Source: Tateyamaria omphalii (GTDB lineage Bacteria; Pseudomonadota; Alphaproteobacteria; Rhodobacterales; Rhodobacteraceae). Taken from it: a stretch of DNA of 64,000 bases. A model generated the notes under the pieces. It did not search any database and was not told where the DNA came from. It saw only the letters and a program-made list of their open reading frames with translations. The stretch spans positions 1,860,001 to 1,924,000 of the forward strand of contig NZ_CP019312.1 of the NCBI RefSeq assembly GCF_001969365.1, written 5' to 3'. Shown in pieces: positions 11,734 through 12,505 of the stretch (position 1 is the first letter of the stretch; the number at the start of each line of letters is the position of its first letter). Both the position numbers and the translations under genes were made by a program.

Positions 11734-11896
11734 GCTCAATCTCTCCGCTTTGTGATGCAAGAGATGGCAGTTATTTCACCAGTGGCAAGGGCCCGCCGAC
11801 CATTCCCGCGCAAACGCCGCATTGGTGTGCGCCCTGCCGCTCAATTCAACTTCAGGTCTATGCAATTGCTGCATGGCAGCATTGAATTGCTGTGTA

Positions 11897-11925
11897 TTGT
11901 GCAGCTGCAGCATGAGCCTATATAA
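11897..11925 (+). promoter_or_regulatory. Candidate promoter of the DUF1127/cuckoo small-RNA locus
   Basis: TTGTGC (11897-11902), a 16-base spacer, and TATATAA (11919-11925), ending 31 bases before the DUF1127 ATG. The -10 side also reads CCTATAT, close to the CCATAT-type -10 of alphaproteobacterial RpoH promoters, and the Rhodobacter counterpart is known to be driven by RpoHI/RpoHII. No clear CTTG -35 is present, so sigma assignment is open. Confidence 0.5.
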
Positions 11926-11956
11926 CCATCAACGAAATGAGCATGAGGCAAAAAAC

Positions 11957-12187
11957 ATGGCCTATTACAACGACGTAGCACAACGCAGCGATCTGGTGGA
12001 ACGTATCCTCGGCACCGCTGCCCGCCTATTCGAAGCCGCCGCAGAGCGCCGCGCACAGCAGCGCATCTACCGCACGACTTTGACCGAGCTGAACGCGCTG
12101 TCCAACCGTGAACTGGCTGATCTTGGCCTGCATCGGTCGGAACTCAAGCGGGTGGCTTGGGAGTCCGCGCAAGACGTGGCAGCCTGA
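11957..12187 (+). CDS. ccaF1: DUF1127 small basic protein, CcaF1-like, leading a CcsR/cuckoo RNA array
   Basis: 76-residue protein with the C-terminal DUF1127 domain: a basic helix RRAQQRIYRTTLTELNALS followed by NRELADLGLHRSEL (the hallmark L-x2-L-x-ELxDLGLxRxE pattern). ATG 11957 has GAGG nine bases upstream; an in-frame start at 11822 would add a poorly conserved stretch crossing the promoter. Directly downstream are six CCTCCTCCC hairpins. In Rhodobacter sphaeroides the equivalent DUF1127 protein (CcaF1) is co-transcribed with the CcsR small RNAs and affects their processing; the same linkage here supports that role by inference. Confidence 0.9.
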   Translation: MAYYNDVAQRSDLVERILGTAARLFEAAAERRAQQRIYRTTLTELNALSNRELADLGLHRSELKRVAWESAQDVAA

Positions 12188-12204
12188 AGACGAATACACG
12201 AGAT

Positions 12205-12277
12205 CAGATGTTCCTCTCCTCCTCCCTGGGGCATCTGAAATTGGCGGCGGCGCCGACCTCCTCCCTGGCGCCGCCGC
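12205..12277 (+). ncRNA. Cuckoo/CcsR-type small RNA, unit 1 (two CCUCCUCCC hairpins)
   Basis: Hairpin 1: stem CAGATG (12205-12210) with CATCTG (12232-12237), loop containing CCTCCTCCC at 12218-12226. Hairpin 2, seven bases on: 11-base stem GCGGCGGCGCC (12244-12254) with GGCGCCGCCGC (12267-12277), loop containing CCTCCTCCC at 12257-12265. The two-hairpin unit with an exposed anti-Shine-Dalgarno loop is the defining form of the cuckoo RNA family. It begins 18 bases after the DUF1127 stop, so it is likely released from that mRNA by processing. Confidence 0.85.
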
Positions 12278-12295
12278 ACTTTGAACACAGCGATA

Positions 12296-12377
12296 CATCG
12301 CGCCCCGGTCCTCCTCCTCCCTGACCGACGCGATGTTGCAAGAGCGGCGGCATTCACCTCCTCCCGAATGTCGCCGC
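12296..12377 (+). ncRNA. Cuckoo/CcsR-type small RNA, unit 2 (two CCUCCUCCC hairpins)
   Basis: Hairpin 3: outer stem CATCGCG (12296-12302) with CGCGATG (12329-12335), inner CGGTC with GACCG, loop carrying CCTCCTCCC at 12313-12321. Hairpin 4, eight bases on: GCGGCG/CATTC (12344-12355, one mismatch) with GAATG/CGCCGC (12366-12377), loop CCTCCTCCC at 12357-12365. The stem sequences differ from unit 1 while the loop motif is unchanged, and mismatching stem bases are matched on both sides, which supports an RNA-level structure. Confidence 0.85.
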
Positions 12378-12408
12378 ACGAATACCGCACCAACCAACCG
12401 GTGCATCA

Positions 12409-12505
12409 GATATGTCCGAACCGGTCCTCCTCCTCCCTGACCGGCGGGCATCAAGACGGCGGCGATCCCCTCCTCCTCCCTGGGATCGCCGCTTTTTCTT
12501 TTTCA
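12409..12505 (+). ncRNA. Cuckoo/CcsR-type small RNA, unit 3, ending in the array terminator
   Basis: Hairpin 5: outer GAT-(AT bulge)-GTCCG (12409-12418) with CGGGCATC (12445-12452), inner CCGGTC (12421-12426) with GACCGG (12439-12444), loop CCTCCTCCC at 12429-12437. Hairpin 6: 11-base perfect stem GCGGCGATCCC (12459-12469) with GGGATCGCCGC (12482-12492), loop CCTCCTCCC at 12472-12480, immediately followed by TTTTTCTTTTT. Hairpin 6 therefore doubles as a Rho-independent terminator for the whole DUF1127-array transcript. Confidence 0.87.

Follow-up and report, generated by a model that had tools for sequence, protein, structure and literature searches.

The DUF1127 gene and the hairpin array

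The locus lies in a 64-kb stretch of the Tateyamaria omphalii genome, which was analysed at its full length and is referred to as the window. It contains, on the + strand, a gene for a small DUF1127 protein and, directly downstream, six hairpins arranged as three double-hairpin units. The gene and the array comprise the following features:

11957..12187, + strand: DUF1127 protein of 76 aa, CcaF1-like (PF06568, 42.6 bits, cut-off 23.3)
12204..12277, + strand: unit 1, hairpins 12204-12238 and 12244-12277, motifs at 12218 and 12257 (model R1, 80.5 bits, 12198-12285)
12290..12377, + strand: unit 2, hairpins 12290-12339 and 12344-12377, motifs at 12313 and 12357 (model R1, 55.0 bits, 12293-12385)
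12412..12492, + strand: unit 3, hairpins 12412-12451 and about 12459-12492, motifs at 12429 and 12472 (model R1, 69.3 bits, 12409-12500)
12459..12503, + strand: apparent terminator, the stem of hairpin 6 followed by TTTTTCTTTTT, as read from the sequence and the fold

An earlier note on this DNA had placed a DUF1127 gene ahead of the array, and the Pfam score bears this out; the gene ends at 12187 and the first array stem starts at 12204. Its nearest named relatives are those of Tateyamaria (12 loci, L039-L050, identity up to 95%). There is continuing debate over whether DUF1127 proteins have RNA or protein as their target (PMC12501420). Open reading frames that overlap the array are taken as mechanical.

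The six copies of CCTCCTCCC in the array are the only ones in the window and all lie on the + strand, compared with a mean of 0.67 and a maximum of three copies in shuffled sequence (100 shuffles); the whole genome holds 28, including these six. On folding of the array each copy is unpaired and enclosed by a stem, in agreement with the original description of six hairpins that each carry the motif in the loop. The 330-nt array region folds at -148.5 kcal/mol, compared with -101.3 +/- 5.7 kcal/mol for 100 shuffles (z -8.3). The grouping of the hairpins into pairs, which had been proposed from their spacing, also holds: the stem ends of the fold leave gaps of 5, 4 and 6 nt within pairs and of 12 and 34 nt between pairs, a pattern like that of the distances given before (7, 8 and 6 nt within pairs, 18 and 31 nt between). 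An extra small hairpin without the motif (GCACC...GGTGC) is folded at 12387-12406, between units 2 and 3.

The array had further been described as ending in a strong T-rich terminator. The T-rich end is present, but not as an element apart from the hairpins: hairpin 6 itself looks like the terminator stem, with the T-rich tract directly after it, which would make a separate terminator superfluous. A simple terminator scan of the locus called no terminator, because the loops that it allows are limited to at most 8 nt.

Membership of the CcsR (cuckoo) family

The locus is a three-unit member of the ccaF1-CcsR ("cuckoo", CIN1) family, and not a novel class of element. At the Rfam gathering threshold, the whole window yielded tRNA only. 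In a permissive scan, as in the covariance search that had been proposed for the array, CcsR1 (RF02791) matched all three pairs with 48.4, 44.3 and 31.9 bits (E-values 1.4e-10, 2.3e-9 and 1e-5 in 1 kb), below its cut-off of 65.3 bits, and ar14 (RF02344) matched twice with 48.5 and 46.3 bits, below its cut-off of 58.8 bits; weaker matches to unrelated families were also obtained. The rest of the genome gave a single further CcsR1 match (19.2 bits), and weak CcsR1 matches were present in five of 14 control genomes. Because of the scores below cut-off and the weak matches in control genomes, a separate covariance model (R1) was built from 36 units of relatives, with the Tateyamaria loci L039-L050 deliberately excluded. 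Sampling for this model started from 123 units that passed the spacing rule, from which one per locus was drawn for 50 loci; 36 of the 50 were aligned, while 13 from genera already present and L109, whose stems misfit by eye, were left out.

Model R1 recovers the three pairs of the window with 80.5, 69.3 and 55.0 bits, the next match having 12.7 bits, and finds 31 units plus five weak matches in the 12 Tateyamaria loci. Together with the CcsR1 matches, these scores from a model without Tateyamaria sequences bear out the cuckoo/CcsR identity proposed earlier. Among other relatives, CcsR1 exceeds its cut-off in L095 and L068 (two of eight loci scanned) and in L029 and L030 (two of six loci scanned), all four of which have arrays that likewise follow a DUF1127 gene, and ar14 exceeds its cut-off in L104 (eight loci scanned); the Tateyamaria loci L039, L041 and L044 gave no Rfam match over cut-off. 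In this genus, where Rfam falls short, a family-wide model detects the array, and its standing as a three-unit member is well supported.

The closest known system is the ccaF1 (RSP_6037)-CcsR1-4 operon of Rhodobacter sphaeroides, which shares with the window locus a DUF1127 gene followed by double-hairpin RNAs, CCUCCUCCC hairpin loops and a final intrinsic terminator. The R. sphaeroides operon is reported to carry four sRNAs (PMC10253847), as given in the earlier note, whereas three units are present here, and the stem sequences of the window are too distant from Rfam CcsR1 for its cut-off. The alpha-r14 sRNAs (RF02344), which include NfeR1 of Sinorhizobium meliloti, also share the CCUCCUCCC loops on variable stems. 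However, NfeR1 is a single three-hairpin sRNA, as opposed to three two-hairpin units behind DUF1127, and the locus does not qualify for alpha-r14 membership, both ar14 scores being under the cut-off and the layout being that of pairs behind DUF1127.

Selection on stems and loops

The earlier note had also claimed that the stems vary with their pairing kept while the loop motif stays fixed, and the relatives support this both by covariation and by arm swaps. In the alignment of the 36 units, ten of the 11 pairs of the second hairpin are changed on both sides in at least one unit. On the MAFFT alignment of these units RNAalifold missed the first hairpin, and an arm-swap control, which took in all 119 distinct units, was therefore used. 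First hairpins form 7.51 of eight pairs with their own arms and 6.33 with swapped arms (maximum of 200 swaps, 6.49), and second hairpins 7.92 of eight compared with 6.97 (maximum swap, 7.12); these figures are not probabilities, because related sequences are not independent. Hairpins 3 and 5 of the window are interrupted and have only six of eight ungapped pairs.

Distribution among relatives

With the family sampled at one genome per genus, 143 of 198 genomes have the paired motif, and a reversed control pattern matches in about 28 of the 198, in part because some longer loops include CCCTCCTCC. At 80 named loci with a homologous DUF1127 gene, at least two motifs lie downstream in 65, one in nine and none in six. 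Six is the commonest motif count (18 of the 80), so that the three units of the window are ordinary. The 12 Tateyamaria loci have four to six motifs each, and the alignment places the end of the four-motif forms after unit 2.

Ten loci with one or no downstream motif carry two to four copies just upstream of the matched DUF1127 gene, and eight of these ten also carry one motif downstream. All ten are of the Sulfitobacter/Roseobacter type (L054, L056-L058, L063, L077, L085, L101, L114 and L116).

A much longer array than the six copies of the window, in L011 (G165:C1:334949-335888), has 26 copies after DUF1127, built from a near-identical three-hairpin repeating unit. Paired CCTCCTCCC without a DUF1127 match in the fetched stretch occurs in L009, L015, L032 and L033, which may represent stand-alone cuckoo RNAs.

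A conserved two-box promoter

The region upstream of the DUF1127 gene contains the following elements:

11860..11884, + strand: promoter box 1, ATGCAATTGCTGCATGGCAGCATTG, with TGCA-N6-GCAT (11861-11874), a VtlR-like 15-mer (11870-11884) and the PhaR-type palindrome CTGCATGGCAG
11897..11913, + strand: promoter box 2, TTGTGCAGCTGCAGCAT, with TGCA-N6-GCAT (11900-11913), over the presumed -35
11918..11923, + strand: presumed -10, CTATAT; promoters aligned on box 2 show a conserved C-Y-T-A-N-N-T here

The start at 11897 given earlier for the feature coincides with the beginning of the -35/operator element, but the conserved block already begins at 11860. A sigma-70 scan of the locus called no promoter.

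The two-box promoter with its fixed spacing is conserved across Rhodobacterales. The box 1 pattern CTGCATRGCAGC, with at most one mismatch, occurs in 72 of the 80 named promoters and in 3 of 545 control stretches, and the box 2 pattern TTGTGCANNYGCAGCA, matched exactly, in 64 of the 80 and in 1 of the 545; because both patterns were drawn from the loci counted, the controls show rarity and not independent prediction. The offset between the boxes is 28 or 29 bp in all 69 loci that have both (at most two mismatches). These promoters (26.4 kb) contain 128 copies of TGCA-N6-GCAT, spread over 76 of 80 loci, compared with two in 180 kb of control sequence, but by itself TGCA-N6-GCAT is not rare, with 46 sites on both strands of 864 kb of this genome. 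In a partly independent test on 30 unnamed genera picked by their arrays, five of which lack a DUF1127 match, 23 carry box 2 (at most one mismatch) and 19 have box 1 at the expected spacing. None of the three remaining DUF1127 genes in this genome has the box pair. Assignment of the boxes to the neighbouring mrp gene was rejected: Mrp is present within 3 kb in only 50 of the 80 loci, and the boxes therefore go with DUF1127. The promoter is an order-wide control element whose sequence matches operators described in other systems, those of DUF1127 genes and of the related sRNA NfeR1, and it makes control of CcsR beyond heat and oxidative stress an answerable question.

Candidate regulators of the promoter

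In Rhizobiales, VtlR/LsrB regulators drive DUF1127 proteins and sRNAs as separate genes. TGCA-N6-GCAT is reported as the site through which LsrB activates the sRNA NfeR1, itself described as having three CCUCCUCCC loops and a CTATAT -10 (PMC10746234), and both the site and the -10 are also present at the window locus. The motif reported for VtlR is CAATGCAGCCATGCA, with three DUF1127 genes and AbcR2 as targets (PMC12595884). Its complement matches the window at 14 of 15 positions (11870-11884), and the best match with one or two mismatches is found in 56 of the 80 promoters and in 1 of the 545 controls. In Brucella this LysR-type regulator switches on an sRNA as well as small DUF1127 genes; the circuit resembles the window in its 15-mer but keeps the DUF1127 genes and the sRNA separate, whereas here they are joined in one locus. 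The T-N11-A form looked for near -60 in a LysR target was found, as TGCA-N6-GCAT, at 11861-11874 and 11900-11913. With less certainty than for the family assignment, we infer from these sites that a LysR-type regulator of the VtlR/LsrB kind controls the locus, with PhaR as the rival.

The boxes were at first taken as operators of PhaR, which would sense PHB, repress DUF1127-CcsR and release it as PHB granules build up, as for phasin genes. This assignment was dropped in favour of a LysR-type regulator on the basis of per-base conservation and of published work (PMC10746234, PMC12542648, PMC12595884), and now appears rather doubtful. Box 1 holds CTGCNNNGCAG (11869-11879), which is the sequence reported for PhaR of R. 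sphaeroides, where PhaR also represses the sRNA MmgR (PMC12542648), and the present genome, in which the palindrome occurs, encodes PhaR (PF05233 gene at C1:936583). The genome has just four sites for the stricter TGCTGCNNNGCAGCA, two before a phasin gene, one at this locus and one before nrtA, and CTGC-N3-GCAG also lies ahead of phaR. Of 20 genomes of the genus, 17 have the strict dyad before a phasin gene, and 17 have it before DUF1127-CcsR; its 70 sites (two for the reversed control) comprise 17 before DUF1127, 25 before a phasin gene and three before nrtA, but also 25 without a recognised neighbour. The co-occurrence of PhaR itself says little, because PhaR is present in 68 of the 70 genomes searched (48 of the 80 named loci plus 22 unnamed); L052 and L053, whose genomes of 1.9 and 2.7 Mb are of completeness not given, lack PhaR and likewise lack the boxes and the array. 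Against PhaR stands the conservation, which extends over about 25 bp and includes an invariant ATR at the centre, whereas phasin sites vary in their centre, and box 2, the more conserved of the two, which has TGCA-N6-GCAT without CTGCNNNGCAG. For these two reasons the LysR-type regulator is preferred.

The LysR-type reading has points against it as well, since the Rhodobacter ccaF1-CcsR promoter is reported to depend on RpoHI/RpoHII (PMC10253847). In the literature consulted, nothing was found on an action of VtlR, LsrB or PhaR at ccaF1-CcsR, which does not establish that it is absent from print, and no LsrB motif text was found in the part consulted of the Agrobacterium LsrB paper (PMC11975290). 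The gene trxB, the neighbour of vtlR in Brucella, was not found in 1.2 Mb of this genome (60 stretches) or in the window, and no LysR candidate gene is therefore named. The same 1.2 Mb contains seven further VtlR-like 15-mers (at most two mismatches), none of which, with contexts judged by eye, is followed by a DUF1127 gene.

A broader and more tentative proposal, possible but short of an even chance, is that one VtlR/LsrB circuit drives the joined DUF1127-CcsR across Rhodobacterales from the two-box promoter, with PhaR also reading the upstream box. If so, the anti-Shine-Dalgarno hairpins would serve an old alphaproteobacterial nutrient switch as its effectors, beyond heat and singlet-oxygen stress, and the reading of the upstream box by PhaR would tie translation control to carbon storage.

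Proposed mechanism

The locus very probably works as an operon of the ccaF1-CcsR type. A single promoter would transcribe the DUF1127 protein together with the three double-hairpin RNAs in its 3' UTR. On the Rhodobacter model, RNase E, aided by the DUF1127 protein, would cut between the units, and the freed RNAs would present identical CCUCCUCCC loops for pairing with Shine-Dalgarno regions, by which translation of particular mRNAs would be blocked; the several loops would provide both dose and redundancy, and hairpin 6 would additionally end transcription. Less certainly, output would be set by the LysR-type regulator, bound to one box about 60 bp before the start and another at -35. For R. 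sphaeroides, the published accounts include an RpoHI/RpoHII promoter, co-transcription, maturation by RNase E and CcaF1, and turnover by PNPase (PMC10253847, PMC8625941, PMC7866481). Homology suggests that these steps may also take place at the window locus.

Whether the loops act on particular mRNAs or in bulk bears on the claim of the earlier note that the array could block many ribosome-binding sites at once, which is one of the weaker parts of that reading and unproven. As a global sponge, the six loops would capture free Shine-Dalgarno sequences in large numbers, with a general slowing of translation as the result; CCUCCU is common to the array loops and to the anti-Shine-Dalgarno end of 16S rRNA, and an array can have as many as 26 copies (L011). 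Counting the loop complements that precede possible start codons did not discriminate between the sponge and the target-specific view. The loops of NfeR1, however, are reported to pair at translation starts and to silence particular mRNAs at the start region, and mutation of its three loops abolishes ntrB silencing (PMC10746234), which makes the sponge unlikely. A role confined to protecting or terminating the DUF1127 mRNA, without trans activity, would fit the position of the array in the 3' UTR, the termination by hairpin 6 and the precursor processing included in the R. sphaeroides reports, but is very improbable: stability does not call for a 9-nt loop motif that stays constant while the stems diverge, and trans effects have been published for CcsR1-4 and NfeR1 (PMC10253847, PMC8625941, PMC10746234).

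A lone hairpin in nrtA-like leaders

A lone CCUCCUCCC hairpin is present at the apex of the terminator stem in the leader of an nrtA-like nitrate-transporter gene (L122:1501-1705; G000:C1:2478857-2479061), 159 bp downstream of a TGCTGCATCGCAGCA dyad, and also in L197, L231 and L200. An nrtA leader that ended prematurely could act as a small anti-Shine-Dalgarno RNA. The leader hairpin is shared, with similar sequence, by G204 and G215, and the same leader layout with different stems occurs in G206 (L200), ahead of an unassigned gene. Of ten plasmid nrtA leaders, taken from the 40 matches listed of 339 records, three carry CTCCTCC at that apex, and the complete 9-mer is absent from all ten.
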